In this document: in pieces, positions 23,331 to 33,777 of the stretch | Layout of the letters: the number at the start of each line of letters is the position of its first letter | Position numbering within the stretch: position 1 is the first letter of the stretch | DNA from: Alphaproteobacteria bacterium | GTDB taxonomy: Bacteria > Pseudomonadota > Alphaproteobacteria > ATCC43930 > CGMCC-115725 | DNA: 34,155 bases | NCBI GenBank assembly: GCA_030041385.1 | Contig: JASHNY010000261.1 | Location: forward strand, 1-34,155 | Direction: 5' to 3' | Made by a program: the position numbers and the translations under genes | Notes under the pieces: generated by a model | What the model saw: the letters and a program-made list of their open reading frames with translations, nothing else | What the model was told of the DNA's origin: nothing | Database searches by the model: none

Positions 23331-23672
23331 ATGTCGAAGGAGCACCACTCATCCGCGGAAGGGCGTGATCCCGAAACCGTCGTGGTCGCGGAGCGGCGTT
23401 CGGCGATTGACACGAAGGGCAGCATCAACCTCCGGATAGAGGCGAATACCCGCCAACTCATCGACGACGCGGCAGCGATCCTCGGCAAGACCCGTACCGA
23501 ATTCATGGTTGAGAGTGCCCGACGGCAGGCGATTGACGTGCTGCTCGACCAGCGGCTCTTCGCCCTTGAGTCGGATCGCTTTGACGCTTTCGTGCACGCG
23601 CTCGACAACCCTCCTGCACCGGGACCGAAACTGAAATCGCTGCTGCGCCGAGTTCCGGCATGGCGGAAGTAG
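23331..23672 (+). CDS. DUF1778 (TacA-type) antitoxin
   Basis: A 113-residue protein with an N-terminal ribbon-helix-helix domain at about residues 26-72 (KGSINLRIEANTRQLIDDAAAILGKTRTEFMVESARRQA, broken here as strand, helix and helix). A C-terminal tail follows, likely wrapping the toxin. This is the DUF1778 family that neutralises GNAT toxins such as TacT and AtaT. The N-terminal 25 residues are longer than usual and polar. The gene overlaps the toxin by 13 bases. It probably represses its own promoter together with the toxin. Confidence 0.88.
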   Translation: MSKEHHSSAEGRDPETVVVAERRSAIDTKGSINLRIEANTRQLIDDAAAILGKTRTEFMVESARRQAIDVLLDQRLFALESDRFDAFVHALDNPPAPGPKLKSLLRRVPAWRK

Positions 23673-24178
23673 ACGAGGGACCGAAACGTCTTTCGGCACC
23701 CGTTCCTCTCACATCCGAGCACGACCTTTCGGACTTCGATTGCGGCGAGCCAGTGCTGAACGACTGGCTACGGCGACGCGCCTTGCCCAATGAGAGCCGC
23801 TTTTCACGAACCTATGTCGTGTGCGAGGACAACCGGGTGGTCGCCTATTTCTGCATTTCAGCGGGCGCCGTAGAGCGGGCGAAAGCACCTGGCAGAGTGC
23901 GACGCAACGCGCCCGACACAATCCCGGTCTCGGTAATCGGGCGGTTGGCGGTCAGCCGCACCCACGCGGGCAAAGGGCTCGGTGCCGATATTCTCTCCGA
24001 CGCGCTGCGACGCATCGCGGTCGCTTCCCAGAGCATCGGGATCGGGGCGGTGCTGGTCCATGCCAAAGACGCTGCTGCCATGCGCTTCTATATGAACTGC
24101 GCCGAGTTTATCGAATATCCGGAAGACAGCCGAACCCTGTTTCTCCCGATCGAAACTGTGATCGCGGCCTTCAGCTAA
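23660..24178 (+). CDS. GNAT toxin of the TacT/AtaT type
   Basis: A 172-residue acetyltransferase. It opens with the toxin-family signature APVPLTSEHDLSDFDCGEPVLNDWL. The acetyl-CoA loop is THAGKGLGADIL at residues 101-112, after RLAVSR. Tyr144 in FYMNCAEF is at the position of the catalytic tyrosine. Toxins of this family acetylate the amino group of aminoacyl-tRNA and stop translation. The overlap with the DUF1778 gene confirms a type II module. It sits between recG and tam and may be an insertion; codon use is a little more A/T-rich at third positions than in its neighbours. Confidence 0.9.
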   Translation: MAEVDEGPKRLSAPVPLTSEHDLSDFDCGEPVLNDWLRRRALPNESRFSRTYVVCEDNRVVAYFCISAGAVERAKAPGRVRRNAPDTIPVSVIGRLAVSRTHAGKGLGADILSDALRRIAVASQSIGIGAVLVHAKDAAAMRFYMNCAEFIEYPEDSRTLFLPIETVIAAFS

Positions 24179-26515: not shown

Positions 26516-26887
<372 letters not shown>

Positions 26888-26997: not shown

Positions 26998-28407
26998 ATG
27001 GCCGACACCAAAAAGGTCATGGAGATGATCAAGGAACACGACGTGAAATACGTCGATTTCCGCTTTACCGACCCGCGCGGGAAATGGCAGCACCTGGCCC
27101 ACCACGTGCGCACGATCACCGACGAATTCCTTAACGACGGAGTGCCGTTCGACGGTTCGTCGATCGCCGGCTGGAAGGCGATCAACGAAAGCGACATGCT
27201 GCTCGTGCCCGATTGCGAAACCGCGGTGCTCGACCCGTTTGCGGCGCAGACCTCGCTGATCCTGTTCTGCGACACGCACGAGCCGCTGACCGGCCAGCCC
27301 TATGGCCGCGACGCCCGCTCAATCGCCAAGAAGGCCGAGCAATACCTGGTTTCGACCGGCATCGCCGATAAGGCGTATTTCGGCCCCGAAGCCGAGTTTT
27401 TCGTGTTCGACGACGTGCGCTACGAAAGCACGATGCAGGCGGCCAGCTATACGATCGACAGCGAGGAAGGCCCCTACGTCAGCGCCAAGCAATACCCCGA
27501 CGGCAATTCCGGCCATCGCCCGCCGATCAAGGGCGGCTATTTTCCGGTGCCGCCGGTCGACAGCCAATCCGACCTCAGGGCCGAGATGCTGTCGGTCATG
27601 CACGACATGGGGCTCAAGGTCGAAAAGCACCACCACGAGGTGGCCCCGAGCCAGAACGAGCTTGGCTTCGAGTTCTCGACGCTGGTGAAGACCGCCGACA
27701 ACATGCAGATCTACAAGTACGTCGTGCACAACGTCGCCCACCAGTACGGCAAGACGGCGACCTTCATGCCCAAGCCGATCAAGGGCGACAACGGCTCGGG
27801 CATGCACACGCACCAGTCGATCTGGAAGGGCGAGCGGCCGAGCTTTGCCGGCAACCTTTATGCCGACCTCAGCGAAACCGCGCTCTATTACATCGGCGGC
27901 ATCATCCGGCACGCCAAGGCGATCAACGCCTTCACCAACCCGACGACCAACAGCTACAAGCGGCTCATTCCCGGGTTCGAGGCGCCGGTGTTGCTGGCCT
28001 ATTCGGCGCGCAACCGCTCTGCCTCATGCCGGATCCCGATCGTATCGAGCCCCAAGGGCAAGCGCGTCGAGGTGCGGTTCCCGGACCCGGCCTGCAACCC
28101 CTATCTCGGCTTCGCGGCAATGCTGATGGCCGGGCTCGACGGCATCCAGAACAAGATTCACCCCGGCGACCCGATCGACAAGAACCTTTACGATCTGCCG
28201 CCCGAGGAATTGCGGGACGTACCGACCGTATGCGGGTCGCTGCGCGAGGCACTCAACGAATTGCGGGCCGACCACTCGTTCCTGACCAAGGGCGACGTGT
28301 TCACCACCGACTTCATTGAGGCCTACACGGAGCTGCGGTGGGAGGAAGTGTACAATTTCGAGCATACCCCCCACCCGATCGAGTTCTCGATGTACTATTC
28401 GGTCTGA
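26998..28407 (+). CDS. glnA: Glutamine synthetase, type I
   Basis: A 469-residue GS-I that makes glutamine from glutamate, ammonia and ATP as a dodecamer. [24 protein letters not shown], the metal-binding [25 protein letters not shown] and NRSASCRIP are present. The adenylylation tyrosine is Tyr398 in NLYDLPPEE, so activity should be controlled by GlnE. The length equals the enterobacterial GS-I. It lies 110 bases after glnB and may be read from the sigma-54 promoter or from its own; no second clear promoter was seen in that gap. A strong terminator follows. Confidence 0.97.
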
Positions 28408-28474: not shown

Positions 28475-30181
28475 TCAGCGCAACACCAGCGACGCCAGCA
28501 GCGCCAATGCCAGCAGGGCGGCGATGCCCTGCCACACGCGCAGCGGCGCGCGCTGGTACAGCGTCAGCGGACGGGGAGCGGCGCTTCGGGCACGCGCCGG
28601 CCCCGCCTCCATTTCGAGCGCGAACTCGGTCATGTCGCGAAACCGCCGCGCCGGGTCGAGCGCGATCGCGTGCGCCAGCGCCGCCTCCAGCCAGGCGGGG
28701 AGATCCGGCCGCAGCGCGCACAGGCTCGACGGCCGGGTTCGCCGCGGCGGGCTCATCGCATCGGCATTGCCATAGGGAAATTCGCCGGCGAAGGCGCGAA
28801 AAATCGTGACCCCGAGCGCATAGATGTCGGTGGCCTCGTTGCCGGCCTCACCCGCCGCCATTTCCGGCGCCATGTAGGCCAGGGTGCCGGGGATCTCGGC
28901 GGCGGGAAAATTCTCCAGCCCGGGGACGCGAACCGCGCCAAGATCGATCAGTTTCAGCGATCCGCTGCGTTCGAGGATCACGTTGTCGGGCTTGATGTCG
29001 CGATGGATGATGCCGGCGCGGTGCAATGCCGCGACCGCGCGCGCGAGGTTGACGGCGATGTTGCGCCCCTCCTCCAGCCCCAGCGCCGGGCTGCGCGACA
29101 GCCGCGTTTCCAGCAACTCGCCCTGGTAGAACGGCATGACCGTGTAGAGCGCGGTCTGTCGGCCTGGCGGCAATTCGATGACGCGGCCGATCCCCGGGTT
29201 GCGGACGCGGGCGCCGACCCAGGCCTCGCGGGCAAAGGCCGCGCGATGGGCCTCGACGCCGGCGACCTGAGGCTTGGGAAATTTCAGCGCGACCGTGCCG
29301 CCTTCGACCTCGTCGTCGGCGCCGAACAGCCGGCTGTAGCGTCCTTCCGACAGCATTGCCTTCAGCACGAACCCGTCGATCGTCTCGCCGCCGACTAGCA
29401 GTGGGATCACCGGAAGGCGCAGGATGTCGGCGCCGATATCGGCCGACCGCTCGCTCGGCAATGCGACCACATCGAGAACCAACGCGGTGCAATTATCGGT
29501 GCTGCCGGCTTCGAGCGCGGCCGAGACCAGCGCCCCGGCGGTATCCTCGGGCGCTGAGCGCTGGCGCAGGATGCGGGCGATGCTCGGCTCCCCGAGAAAC
29601 CCGTGCACGCCGTCGCTGCACAGCAGAAACCGGTCATGCAGGGCAATCGGCTGCGCGGCGTAGTCGAGGCGCACTTCCGCCTCGACCCCGAGCGCGCGCG
29701 TCAGCGCGTGCGAACGGCCGGTGCCCTCCTGGCGCACATGATCGGCCGTCAGGCAGGTCATGCGCTCGCCGCTCAGCCGGTAGACCCGGGTGTCCCCGAC
29801 ATGCAGCAGGTGCGCGACCCGGCCCCGCAGCACCAGCGCGGTAAAGGTGCAGCCCAGCCCGGCAAGCTCCGGGTCCTGCCGGCCTATCGAGTTGATCCAG
29901 CCGTTGAGCGCGCTGACGATGCGCGCCCCGGCGCGCTGCACCTCCATCGTCTCGGGCAGGTCGCAGAACCCGTCGAGAAAACCGCGCACGGCCGTCTCGG
30001 CCGCAATGCGGCCGCCCTTGGCGCCGCCGATCCCGTCGGCGATCGCCGCAATCACCTCGCGGCGCGGCTCCGGCAGTTCCGCGCCCGAGAGAGCGCCGGC
30101 GAAATCCTCGTTTTCCTTGCGCGGCCCGGTTTTCGAGGCGAACCCGACGCTTGCCTGTACACCGGTCTCGATCGCGGTCAT
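28475..30181 (-). CDS. Bifunctional PP2C-type phosphatase and Ser/Thr protein kinase, membrane anchored
   Basis: A 568-residue fusion. Residues 1-240 are a PP2C phosphatase with metal ligands in KENEDF (Asp26), IADGIGGAKGG (Asp49), LLCSDGVHGFL and GSTDNCTALVL. Residues about 265-530 are a Hanks-type kinase with the ATP lysine in VALKFPK, the catalytic HRDIKPDN (Asp395), DLG in place of DFG, and YMAPEM. A hydrophobic C-terminal segment (GIAALLALALLASLVL) anchors it, with the enzyme domains in the cytoplasm. Related fusions occur beside nitrate and nitrite assimilation genes; here it lies in an ammonium island. The target proteins are unknown. GGAG precedes the ATG. Confidence 0.92.
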   Translation of the reverse strand: MTAIETGVQASVGFASKTGPRKENEDFAGALSGAELPEPRREVIAAIADGIGGAKGGRIAAETAVRGFLDGFCDLPETMEVQRAGARIVSALNGWINSIGRQDPELAGLGCTFTALVLRGRVAHLLHVGDTRVYRLSGERMTCLTADHVRQEGTGRSHALTRALGVEAEVRLDYAAQPIALHDRFLLCSDGVHGFLGEPSIARILRQRSAPEDTAGALVSAALEAGSTDNCTALVLDVVALPSERSADIGADILRLPVIPLLVGGETIDGFVLKAMLSEGRYSRLFGADDEVEGGTVALKFPKPQVAGVEAHRAAFAREAWVGARVRNPGIGRVIELPPGRQTALYTVMPFYQGELLETRLSRSPALGLEEGRNIAVNLARAVAALHRAGIIHRDIKPDNVILERSGSLKLIDLGAVRVPGLENFPAAEIPGTLAYMAPEMAAGEAGNEATDIYALGVTIFRAFAGEFPYGNADAMSPPRRTRPSSLCALRPDLPAWLEAALAHAIALDPARRFRDMTEFALEMEAGPARARSAAPRPLTLYQRAPLRVWQGIAALLALALLASLVLR

Positions 30182-30354: not shown

Positions 30355-30717
30355 TTATTCTGGCCGGCACCGGTAATGGAGGAAATAGCCGCCGGTGCTC
30401 GACGCGTTACGGAATTCGAGCCTGCCGCTCGCGCGGTCGAGCTCGAAATACCCCTGACTCGGGTCGTGCCAGCTGATCCGCGCGTCGGTGATCTCGGCCG
30501 GAATCGAGCCCACGAGGCGGCGCTCGAGATCGATAACGATCGCCCAAGTCGTGCCGCTCGCCGGATTGGTGCATTGCAGGTTCAGGATGGCAGCCTGTGC
30601 CGTGCACCCGCAGGCGAGCGATATGCCGATCCCCGCCGCGAGCACGGCGGAGCCCGCCCGCCAATCGGCCAAACCGCCGCGCGATCGCGCCCGCAAGAGG
30701 GAGAATAATCTCAGCAT
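30355..30717 (-). CDS. Small exported protein of unknown function
   Basis: A 120-residue protein with an N-terminal export signal (hydrophobic AGSAVLAAGIGISLACG, probable cleavage after AQA). The mature part is beta-rich: ILNLQCTNPASG, WAIVIDLERRLVGSIPAEIT, ISWHDPSQGYFELDRASGRLEF, ending in YRCRPE. Two cysteines (LQC and YRC) could form a disulphide. It resembles other short periplasmic proteins of alphaproteobacteria with a W-x-I-x-I-D strand, but no named family is recognised. The ATG at 30717 is preferred to the TTG at 30723. It is divergent from the first amtB. The 173-base gap to the kinase/phosphatase gene shows nothing clear. Confidence 0.65.
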   Translation of the reverse strand: MLRLFSLLRARSRGGLADWRAGSAVLAAGIGISLACGCTAQAAILNLQCTNPASGTTWAIVIDLERRLVGSIPAEITDARISWHDPSQGYFELDRASGRLEFRNASSTGGYFLHYRCRPE

Positions 30718-30758
30718 TATCAATAATATCCGGGCCGCGTTTAGGCCGGCGGCCGACT

Positions 30759-30774
30759 AGGCACGGTTCTTGCC
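30759..30774 (+). promoter_or_regulatory. Sigma-54 (RpoN) promoter of the first amtB
   Basis: AGGCACGGTTCTTGCC matches TGGCACG-N4-TTGCW except at the two outermost bases. The GG and GC elements are correctly spaced, predicting transcription from about 30785 and a leader of about 80 bases. This is the best RpoN site in the window. An NtrC binding site should lie within the preceding 150 bases, inside the divergent gene, but none was certain by eye. Confidence 0.8.
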
Positions 30775-30864: not shown

Positions 30865-32202
30865 ATGCTGGTCCCTTCGCCCAAATGGCTCGATACCGGA
30901 TCCAACGCCTGGCAAATGACGGCGGCCACCTTTGTCGGGCTGCAAAGCGTTCCCGGGCTGGTGATCCTCTACGGAGGTATTGTCAAGAAGAAGTGGGCGC
31001 TCAACTCGGCCTTCATGGCGATGTACGCCTTTGCCGCCGTGATGATCGTCTGGGTGCTGTGGGCCTACAACATGGCCTTCGGGCAACAATGGCTCCCGTT
31101 CCTTGGCAAGCCGATGTCGGCATTATCCGCCGGCTTCCTGCAAGGCCAGGCGACGATACCGGCAGCCGCCTCGGGCATGCCGGCGCTCGCCTTCCCGATG
31201 TCGACGATGATGTTCTTCCAGTTCGTCTTTGCCGCGATCACCGTGATCATCCTGGCCGGCTCGCTGATCGGGCGGATGAACTTCAAGGCCTGGATCATCT
31301 TCGTGCCGTTGTGGATGACCTTTGTCTACACGGTCGGCGCGTTCAGCATCTGGGGCGGCGGCTGGCTCGCCTCCCTGGGCGCGCTCGACTTCTCCGGCGG
31401 CTATGTGATCCATCTTGCCGCCGGCACCTCGGGGTTTGTCGCGGCGGCGCTGATCGGGCCGCGGCTGCAGGAAGACCGCGACCATTTTCCGCCGAACAGC
31501 CTGCTGATGGCGCTGGCCGGCGCCGGCATCTTGTGGCTCGGCTGGAACGGGTTCAACGGCGGCGACCCCTACTTCGCCAATGCCGACGCCTCCGCCGCAA
31601 TCCTCAACACCAACCTGACGACCTGCGTGTCGCTGCTGGTGTGGACGATCATGGACTCGATGGCCTACGGCAAGCCGTCGGTCGTCGGCGCGATCAACGG
31701 CATGATCGCCGGTCTGGTCGGCATCACGCCGGCGGCCGGCTATGTCAACGGCTGGGGTGCGATCATCATCGGCGTCTGCACCGGCATCATTCCGTGGCTG
31801 GCGATGAACAAGCTCCAGACCTCCCGGTTGATGATGAAGGTCGATGATACGCTGAGCGTGTTGTCCACGCATGGCGTCGCCGGGCTCACCGGCGGCCTGT
31901 TGACCGGCATCCTCGCCTGCCCCGACATGATCGAATACATCGGCACCGCAAAGGATGCTCCGGGCGTCAGCGGAACCGGCTGGCTCTACGGCAATTTCCA
32001 CCAGTTCCTGCTGCAGGTCTATGCGGCCGCCTTCATCATCGCCTTCAACGTCGTCGCCACCTTCGTGATCCTGAAGGTGATCTCGGTCTTCGTGCCCTTG
32101 CGCATGGACGAGACGACGCTGCGGGTCGGCGACGACGCCGTACATGGCGAGACGGCGTACAATTTCGGCGACGGAGAGGAAGCGCCCATCGTCGCCGAAT
32201 AG
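30865..32202 (+). CDS. amtB: Ammonium transporter (AMT family), first copy
   Basis: A 445-residue channel-like transporter with 11 predicted membrane helices. The twin pore histidines are His183 (YVIHLAAGTSG) and His336 (LSTHGVAGLTGG), and LDFSGGYVIH carries the conserved aspartate. It lacks a cleavable signal peptide, unlike the second copy, and has AMT1-like signatures (GWNGFNGGDPYFANADASAAILNTN). Identity to the second copy is low, so they are distinct subfamilies and not a recent duplication. AGAGGTGGAG is the ribosome binding site. The cytoplasmic C-terminus (PLRMDETTLRVGDDAVHGETAYNF, split here as two blocks) is the usual contact for PII proteins. Confidence 0.94.
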   Translation: MLVPSPKWLDTGSNAWQMTAATFVGLQSVPGLVILYGGIVKKKWALNSAFMAMYAFAAVMIVWVLWAYNMAFGQQWLPFLGKPMSALSAGFLQGQATIPAAASGMPALAFPMSTMMFFQFVFAAITVIILAGSLIGRMNFKAWIIFVPLWMTFVYTVGAFSIWGGGWLASLGALDFSGGYVIHLAAGTSGFVAAALIGPRLQEDRDHFPPNSLLMALAGAGILWLGWNGFNGGDPYFANADASAAILNTNLTTCVSLLVWTIMDSMAYGKPSVVGAINGMIAGLVGITPAAGYVNGWGAIIIGVCTGIIPWLAMNKLQTSRLMMKVDDTLSVLSTHGVAGLTGGLLTGILACPDMIEYIGTAKDAPGVSGTGWLYGNFHQFLLQVYAAAFIIAFNVVATFVILKVISVFVPLRMDETTLRVGDDAVHGETAYNFGDGEEAPIVAE

Positions 32203-32353: not shown

Positions 32354-32369
32354 TGGCATGAATCTTGGT
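32354..32369 (+). promoter_or_regulatory. Weak sigma-54-like site before the second amtB
   Basis: TGGCATGAATCTTGGT has the right spacing and a good -24 box, but the -12 dinucleotide reads GG instead of GC. It lies in the 243-base gap between the two transporter genes, about 80 bases before the second start. It may be a weak or degenerate RpoN promoter. The rest of this gap shows only a CCGGGACACCGG repeat near 32241. Confidence 0.35.
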
Positions 32370-32445
32370 AACCGAAGACGGGGCCGGCCCGCCGGACCGC
32401 CTGTGCGCGGGCATCCACTGCCGGCATCGTAGGGAGAGGACACGC

Positions 32446-33777
32446 ATGCGTTTTGTATACCGAGCCGGGCAATGCCTTGCCGTCGCCGCGGCTTTCACCT
32501 CGTTCTGGGCAATGTCGGCCATGGCCCAGACCCCCGCCCCGGCGGCCGCGGCACCCAAGCTGGACAGCGGCGACACCGCCTGGATGCTCACCTCGGTCGC
32601 CCTTGTCCTGATGATGACAATCCCGGGGCTTGCGCTGTTCTACGGCGGCATGGTCCGCAAGATGAACGTTCTGGCGACGGTCATGCAAAGCTTCATGGTG
32701 ACCTGTCTCGTCACCGTGCTGTGGACCGTGCTGACCTACAGCCTCGCCTTCACCCCCGGCACCCCGTTCATCGGCGGCTTCAGCCGGGTTCTGCTGATGG
32801 GAATGACCCTCGATTCGGTCAACGACCTGGCCAAGACCATCCCCGAATCGGTCTACATGTGCTTTCAGATGACCTTCGCGATCATCACGCCGGCGCTGAT
32901 CTGCGGCTCGATCGCCGACCGCATGAAATTCTCCGCGCTGATCTGGTTTATCGGGCTGTGGGCGGTGCTGGTGTATGCGCCGATCGCGCACTGGGTGTGG
33001 AGCTCGGACGGGTTTCTGAACACCGCAGGCGTGCTTGATTTCGCCGGCGGCACCGTCGTGCACATCAATTCCGGGGTCGCCGGTCTGATGTGCGCGCTGA
33101 TGCTCGGCAAGCGGCGCGGCTACGGCACCGAGGCGATGGCGCCGCACAATCTGGTGCTGAGCGTCATCGGCGCTTCGCTGCTGTGGGTCGGCTGGTTCGG
33201 CTTCAACGCCGGTTCGGCGACCGCGGCCAACACCAGCGCCGGCATGGCGATGGCGGTGACGCAAATCGCCACCGCTACCGCAGCGCTGACCTGGATGTTC
33301 GTCGAGTGGACGTTGCGCGGCAAGCCCAGCGTGCTCGGCATCATTTCGGGCGCGGTCGCCGGCCTCGTCGCGATCACGCCGGCTTCCGGCTTCGTCGACC
33401 CGCGCGGCGCCCTGATCATCGGCATCGCCGCCGGGGTCGCCTGCTATTGGGGCGCGACCGGGCTCAAGCATGCGCTCGGTTACGACGATGCGCTCGACGC
33501 GTTCGGCGTGCATGCCGTGGGCGGCACCGTCGGTGCGATTCTGACAGGCGTCCTCGCCGTGGCGGCGGTCGGCGGCCAGGGCCACAGCGGGCTGATCGAC
33601 GGCAACCCGCACCAGGTCATCGTCCAGATCTACGGGGTCGCCTGCACGATCGTTTACGACGCCATCGTCAGCCTGATCCTGCTCAAGGCAATCGACCTGG
33701 CGATCGGCCTGCGTGTCGATCCCGACATGGAGCGCGAAGGTCTCGATTTGTCGCTTCACGGCGAGATCGTGCAATGA
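32446..33777 (+). CDS. amtB: Ammonium transporter (AmtB type), second copy
   Basis: A 443-residue transporter with a cleavable signal peptide (CLAVAAAFTSFWAMSAMAQ) and the classic AmtB core: DSGDTAWMLTSVALVLMMTIPGLALFYGGMVR, given here only as a family signature of the first helix. Pore histidines are His206 (VVHINSGVAGL) and His356 (FGVHAVGGTVG). The C-terminal RVDPDMEREGLDLSLHGE is the conserved regulatory tail that senses PII. The ATG at 32446 follows GGGAGAGGA; the upstream GTG at 32365 lies in a non-coding stretch. No glnK lies next to it, so GlnB from this island or a distant GlnK must serve it. Confidence 0.96.
   Translation: MRFVYRAGQCLAVAAAFTSFWAMSAMAQTPAPAAAAPKLDSGDTAWMLTSVALVLMMTIPGLALFYGGMVRKMNVLATVMQSFMVTCLVTVLWTVLTYSLAFTPGTPFIGGFSRVLLMGMTLDSVNDLAKTIPESVYMCFQMTFAIITPALICGSIADRMKFSALIWFIGLWAVLVYAPIAHWVWSSDGFLNTAGVLDFAGGTVVHINSGVAGLMCALMLGKRRGYGTEAMAPHNLVLSVIGASLLWVGWFGFNAGSATAANTSAGMAMAVTQIATATAALTWMFVEWTLRGKPSVLGIISGAVAGLVAITPASGFVDPRGALIIGIAAGVACYWGATGLKHALGYDDALDAFGVHAVGGTVGAILTGVLAVAAVGGQGHSGLIDGNPHQVIVQIYGVACTIVYDAIVSLILLKAIDLAIGLRVDPDMEREGLDLSLHGEIVQ

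Follow-up and report, generated by a model that had tools for sequence, protein, structure and literature searches.

What does an enzyme that carries both a Ser/Thr kinase and a phosphatase act on when its gene lies among genes for ammonium uptake and assimilation? The question is raised by a locus in a 34,155-nucleotide stretch of an alphaproteobacterial contig (the window), which encodes a fusion of the two activities, here called PPK. An earlier note on this DNA had placed the gene beside glnA and two ammonium transporters, and glnB, glnA, amt1 and amt2 are indeed all adjacent to it (Table 1).

Table 1. Features of the PPK locus, with positions in the window.
Feature	Position	Strand	Remarks
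PPK	28475..30181	-	Bifunctional PP2C phosphatase, Hanks-type Ser/Thr kinase and tail anchor; 568 aa
PP2C domain of PPK	29474..30121	-	aa 21-236; metal ligands D26, D49/G50, D190, D229
Hanks kinase domain of PPK	28607..29383	-	aa 267-525; VALK300, E319, HRD395, N400, D413LG, APE440
C-terminal tail-anchor helix of PPK	28481..28546	-	aa 546-567; no periplasmic domain
glnB (PII)	26549..26887	+	Has Ala49 and Tyr51; neighbour of PPK here, linkage not conserved
glnA	26998..28407	+	Neighbour of PPK here; linkage retained in one relative only
Small protein	30355..30723	-	N-terminal hydrophobic stretch, likely exported; upstream of PPK
sigma54-like -24/-12 promoter	30759..30773	+	AGGCACGGTTCTTGC; 106 bp ahead of amt1
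amt1	30865..32202	+	Encodes a 445-aa ammonium transporter; divergent with respect to PPK and the small gene; retained as a partner of PPK
amt2	32365..33777	+	Encodes another ammonium transporter; in several relatives its orthologue flanks PPK on the opposite side

Architecture of the fusion protein

The PPK reading frame translates through 568 codons with no internal stop. Pfam assigns PP2C_2 to residues 41-216 (1.2e-11) and Pkinase to residues 274-475 (2.1e-31), and NCBIfam places a Stp1-type PP2C at residues 21-236 and a PknB-type kinase at residues 273-535. Both NCBIfam matches fall under the equivalog cut-offs, with 131 bits against the Stp1/IreP phosphatases (NF033484; cut-off 230) and 139.6 bits against the PASTA kinases PknB/Stk1 (NF033483; cut-off 450). 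PPK has no extracytoplasmic PASTA repeats, and the chain stops 2 residues past its single strong hydrophobic segment (residues 549-566). A tail anchor is likewise found at the C-terminus of 105/111 PPK relatives, with a median of 2-3 residues beyond it. Two rows from plasmid records were left out of the input for structure prediction. An AlphaFold2 model of PPK (mean pLDDT 86, pTM 0.54) includes the C-terminal helix at 546-567. Its kinase half matches M. tuberculosis PknA/PknB (TM by target mostly 0.82-0.87), and its phosphatase half matches Stp1-type enzymes, tPphA and PstP (TM 0.79-0.88). Reading frame, Pfam, hydrophobic segment and model all agree with the earlier reading of PP2C, Hanks kinase and C-terminal anchor on one chain.

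The catalytic residues of both domains, which had been described as intact-looking, bear out that description on comparison. We find K300, E319, D395, N400 and D413 in the kinase half and D26, D49-G50, D190-G191 and D229-N230 in the PP2C half. K300, E319, D395, N400, D413, D49, D190 and D229 are invariant in 112/112 aligned proteins of the Amt, NarK and FNT types, named for the transporter genes near which they occur. The DLG motif in place of DFG had also been singled out as an oddity. Leucine occupies position 414 in 16/16 Amt-type, 16/55 NarK-type and 5/41 FNT-type members (the remainder have F or Y, mostly F), and both HRD and DLG are fixed across the Amt-linked clade; we reject DLG as a special feature of PPK on the ground that it is frequent across the fusion family. 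Judged by its sequence, PPK is competent on paper for kinase and phosphatase reactions, fixed at the membrane and paired with a transporter.

The window's genome contains one PPK-type fusion in total, as far as we found. Its nirB-nirD-nitrate reductase cluster (L308, G000:C46:9064-15704), which includes a distant MFS transporter, is not flanked by a fusion gene. The genome also encodes a PP2C protein and a kinase in two genes about 3 kb from each other (G000:C167:36647-37351 and C167:40598-41389), possibly a further Ser/Thr phosphorylation system whose arrangement looks type VI secretion-like.

Linkage to Amt1 within the family

We compared 39 genomes of the window's family, and about half of them contain a PPK orthologue, at 75-82% identity. 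PPK is found with Amt1 in 18/18 family loci whose contig reaches far enough. The two genes are 684 bp apart in the window and at most 0.9 kb apart in 17/18 loci; the distance is 5.2 kb in L118, where there is an insertion. Every such locus has a small gene in the interval, on the same strand as PPK, and amt1 is divergent. Scoring co-occurrence in 37 family genomes, many of them fragmented assemblies, we find both Amt1 (at least 74% identity) and the Amt-type PPK in 18 and neither in 16, with 3 exceptions (Fisher p = 2e-7, ignoring shared ancestry). Two of the exceptions are at contig ends (G026 and G027), and the third, G019, has a PPK of 48% identity, also at a contig end. The patchy presence and absence of Amt1 and PPK inside several genera suggests that the two have repeatedly been lost together in the family. 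In G019, amt1 and the small gene occupy one contig end beside trpG/D/C-like genes (L315, G019:C235), and the PPK copy occupies another after a trpE-like gene (L125, G019:C306); these two ends may adjoin each other.

Linkage with nitrogen genes, which the earlier note had proposed to check by comparing neighbourhoods, is conserved far beyond the window, with the transporter as the partner. The assimilation genes are not part of this conserved linkage: apart from the window, a single relative has glnA and glnB adjoining PPK (L113, on the same contig as L004), and we reject a direct link of PPK to glnA/glnB on account of this unconserved neighbourhood. In L112, a PII gene comes after amt1. Elsewhere in the window (23331-24178, + strand), between recG and a methyltransferase gene, a TacA-type antitoxin gene (PF08681, 1.3e-24) is followed by a gene for a GNAT acetyltransferase, and the two are likely a TacAT toxin-antitoxin pair.

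Amt1 represents a distinct lineage, its orthologues being at least 74% identical and other Amts only about 33-41%, and no close Amt1 was found among 385 class genomes outside the family. We class it by sequence as a divergent Amt subtype. It has FNGGD at the position of FNAGS in E. coli AmtB, both pore His positions are retained, and its N-terminus is not signal peptide-like. The small protein encoded between PPK and amt1 was encountered only together with Amt1. It is about 120 aa long, with a conserved domain, two invariant Cys residues and a predicted fold of seven beta strands (pLDDT mostly above 90). It matches no Pfam family, a PDB search by sequence or fold gave no significant match, and no homologue was found when the remaining genomes of a class sample of 289 were scanned. 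One guess is that it might act with Amt1 as a partner in the periplasm.

NarK and FNT neighbours across Pseudomonadota

The fusion is present in 125/399 Pseudomonadota genomes (E <= 1e-60) and in 19/385 genomes of a class sample (1e-45). We compared 97 genomic neighbourhoods outside the Amt clade, picked from match lists regardless of neighbours, and 8 annotated plasmid records. With neighbour genes called by tblastn with chosen queries, and in sampled genomes that are related to one another, the 97 genome loci have within 3.5 kb of the fusion a NarK/NasA gene in 50 cases, an FNT channel gene in 37 and neither in 10. NarK or FNT also lies by the fusion in 8/8 plasmid records. As a control, we took unrelated kinases returned by a single-protein scan of the genome contigs, and only 1/79 of these loci (1.14 Mb) had such a gene within 10 kb, a single Amt gene. 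Among the 10 loci lacking a transporter, three leave the contig (L160, L161 and L275), L291 has NarK at 3.54 kb, L263 and L305-L307 form a divergent clade with broken catalytic residues, and L199 and L293 are unexplained.

The divergent clade belongs to one family, f201 (L263:6109-7659, L305:6182-7732, L306:6268-7854 and L307:5982-7742). Both domains have lost catalytic residues: the Asp of HRD is replaced by Gln/Ala in the kinase, and D190 by Gln in the PP2C half. The genes lie near others resembling inorganic pyrophosphatase and pyrophosphate-dependent phosphofructokinase. It is possible that the f201 fusion is a double pseudoenzyme with a new partner.

The transporter gene is upstream of the fusion on the same strand in 84/95 loci, with a median gap of 80 bp for FNT and 135 bp for NarK. 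Genes for nirB, nirD and nitrate reductase are absent from 28 FNT-labelled loci with at least 5 kb of flank on each side; therefore, the element that the loci share is the transporter and not the reductase. Nine genomes have two fusion copies, one at NarK and one at FNT. Conversely, some genomes of the window's family have nitrate clusters with no adjacent PPK (L308 and L309), and such transporters therefore do not always need the enzyme. In L154, L157, L161, L201, L202, L215, L254, L260, L271, L272, L277, L280 and L283, FNT and the fusion have the cyanase gene cynS next to them or close by. Given the occurrence of cynS there in many lineages, this FNT subfamily may carry cyanate besides nitrite.

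A tree of 122 fusions, built by a quick method with SH-aLRT support only, follows transporter type. The FNT-linked fusions (40 rows) fall in one clade (SH-aLRT 100), the Amt-linked clade holds 16 rows (15 full-length plus L114, at a contig end; SH-aLRT 100), and NarK-linked fusions are most of the remaining tree. The transporter labels require 11 changes, against 55.7 for shuffled labels (0/200 as low). The sole FNT label outside the FNT clade is L210, which NarK adjoins too. Since alphaproteobacterial NarK-linked fusions, among them L124 and L126 from the window's own family, are the sister group of the Amt clade (fork support 84, moderate), a partner change from NarK to Amt is likely in the history of the fusion.

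We also looked at promoters. A sigma54-like element lies 80-133 bp before amt1 in 19/19 family loci and has at most 1 mismatch in 18/19, a match reached by about 1-2% of shuffles; the site in the window is the only one in its 34 kb. Sites with at most 1 mismatch precede 33/55 NarK and 18/41 FNT genes beside fusions, where shuffles predict 0.4 and 0.55, respectively, and random stretches of the same loci give 1-2. No sigma54-like site was found facing the small gene and PPK. Control by sigma54/NtrC is well established, and the putative sites fit expression of amt1, and of the NarK and FNT genes that have them, under nitrogen limitation.

Proposed role and relation to known systems

On balance, we favor the view that PPK is a membrane-tethered Ser/Thr switch dedicated to an inorganic-nitrogen transporter, here Amt1. 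More tentatively, and with rather less than even confidence, we propose that the kinase/phosphatase family directly sets the activity of NarK, FNT and Amt, which are three unrelated folds, through reversible Ser/Thr phosphorylation, and that each transporter has its own paralogue. The tail anchor would hold PPK close to its transporter on the membrane's inner face; the kinase half would add a phosphate to a cytoplasmic Ser/Thr, either in the transporter itself or in a bound subunit, and the PP2C half would remove it. Transport could thereby be quickly adjusted as nitrogen supply shifts. More generally, our findings suggest that bacteria switch nitrogen uptake on and off via Ser/Thr phosphorylation. 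Gene linkage proves functional association, not enzyme-substrate contact. Counting against the switch, PPK is divergent from amt1 in the Amt arrangement, and the two are on separate transcripts. A search for an invariant cytosolic Ser/Thr clearly setting Amt1 apart from other Amts gave no clear candidate.

Our confidence in the transporter as substrate is moderate because a transporter acting as sensor is equally compatible with the genomics, explaining linkage and tree just as well. Amt1, NarK or FNT would then report substrate flux to PPK through the membrane, and PPK, which has no sensor domain of its own, would phosphorylate soluble targets, much as in Amt-histidine kinase fusions but with the Ser/Thr enzyme as a separate protein. 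There is precedent in Kuenenia Amt5, where a histidine kinase responds to ammonium (PMC10433425). However, in comparing the three transporter types we found no conserved downstream target gene that goes with the pair, and we regard a sensing transporter as unlikely.

PII, glutamine synthetase and AmtB had been named at the outset as candidate targets. The data favor the AmtB-type Amt1, and the case for PII is weakened. It is improbable, in our view, that PPK targets PII or glutamine synthetase and affects the transporters indirectly. The PP2C half does resemble tPphA, a cyanobacterial PphA-type enzyme, and PphA dephosphorylates PII. In addition, glnB and glnA adjoin PPK in the window and L113, and PII controls Amt and nitrate transport (PMC10710835). 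However, that linkage is not conserved, and a single common PII target leaves unexplained why each transporter type has its own kinase clade and each transporter its own copy. Furthermore, position 49, the site of the phosphoserine in cyanobacterial PII, is Ala in both PII proteins of the genome, with the uridylylation residue Tyr51 kept, and on this basis we reject PII phosphorylation of the cyanobacterial type.

A passenger role, in which PPK is co-expressed with nitrogen-regulated clusters under sigma54/NtrC and acts on unrelated proteins, is quite improbable. The sigma54-like sites ahead of the transporters agree with it, and co-regulation alone can keep genes together, but the phylogeny of a passenger should not track transporter type, nor should its gene adjoin the transporter rather than the reductase. 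Finally, it is very improbable that the PP2C half only resets kinase autophosphorylation while the kinase acts on the transporter: two domains on one chain favor action in cis, but apart from the P+1 Thr, 14/16 activation loops of the Amt type are free of Ser/Thr, which makes classical loop phosphorylation an unlikely PP2C target and a substrate shared with the kinase the more likely one. Most NarK- and FNT-type members have Ser/Thr in the loop, and for this reason resetting may hold in those types. If the transporter switch that we prefer is real, it would supply nitrogen control with a layer missing so far, encoded beside nitrate, nitrite and ammonium transporters in about a third of the sampled Pseudomonadota genomes, and the pairing of paralogues with different transporters is a ready test of specificity.

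The fusion already has a name in RefSeq, where a "bifunctional protein-serine/threonine kinase/phosphatase" of Pseudomonadota shares with PPK the order PP2C, kinase, tail anchor. PPK has its PP2C domain N-terminal to the Hanks kinase on one chain, two intact catalytic centres and an adjacent inorganic-nitrogen transporter gene (amt1), and it is similar along its full length to the RefSeq-named fusion of Azospirillum thermophilum (53.9% over 96%). The named fusions, for example from Azospirillum, Methylocystis, Methylobacterium and Acinetobacter plasmids, are 27-54% identical to PPK and have NarK or FNT adjoining in the records compared. In contrast, the window's clade adjoins Amt and a small, likely exported protein, and its activation loop is mostly devoid of Ser/Thr. 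Pseudomonas aeruginosa PA1782 presumably sits in the nitrate assimilation cluster of that species. It is listed merely as a third Ser/Thr kinase (PMC8560001), and a 2025 survey reports PP2C proteins with kinase domains, mostly from Pseudomonadota, giving no function (PMC12088040). The transporter pairing and the Amt version are apparently unreported: in the open-access literature we found no report of either, and no functional study or in vitro assay of the fusion. A 2023 review of bacterial transporter control has LacS as the sole example of direct transporter phosphorylation (PMC10710835), and a term search of a 2023 review of prokaryotic Amt proteins gave no Ser/Thr kinase that acts on Amt (PMC10433425).

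Several known systems share elements with PPK. GlnK is likewise a cytosolic regulator encoded beside amt (PMC10710835); unlike GlnK, a PII protein that plugs AmtB, PPK is an enzyme. In Amt-histidine kinase sensors such as Kuenenia Amt5, a kinase is also tied to an Amt (PMC10433425), whereas PPK is a Ser/Thr kinase plus phosphatase on a separate polypeptide and its relatives pair with NarK and FNT. Each half of PPK belongs, by sequence and predicted fold, to the same domain family as PknB/StkP-type kinases and Stp1/PstP-type PP2C phosphatases, which are separate proteins; PPK is fused and lacks PASTA or any other extracytoplasmic sensor. In plants, CIPK23 with a PP2C acts on AMT1 and NRT1.1, and in yeast Npr1 acts on Mep2. 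These eukaryotic systems consist of separate proteins with Ca2+/CBL or TOR input, and they resemble PPK by analogy only, in applying the same Ser/Thr kinase-PP2C logic to ammonium and nitrate transporters. If our reading is true, PPK and its relatives would be a bacterial counterpart of plant CIPK/PP2C control over nitrate and ammonium uptake.
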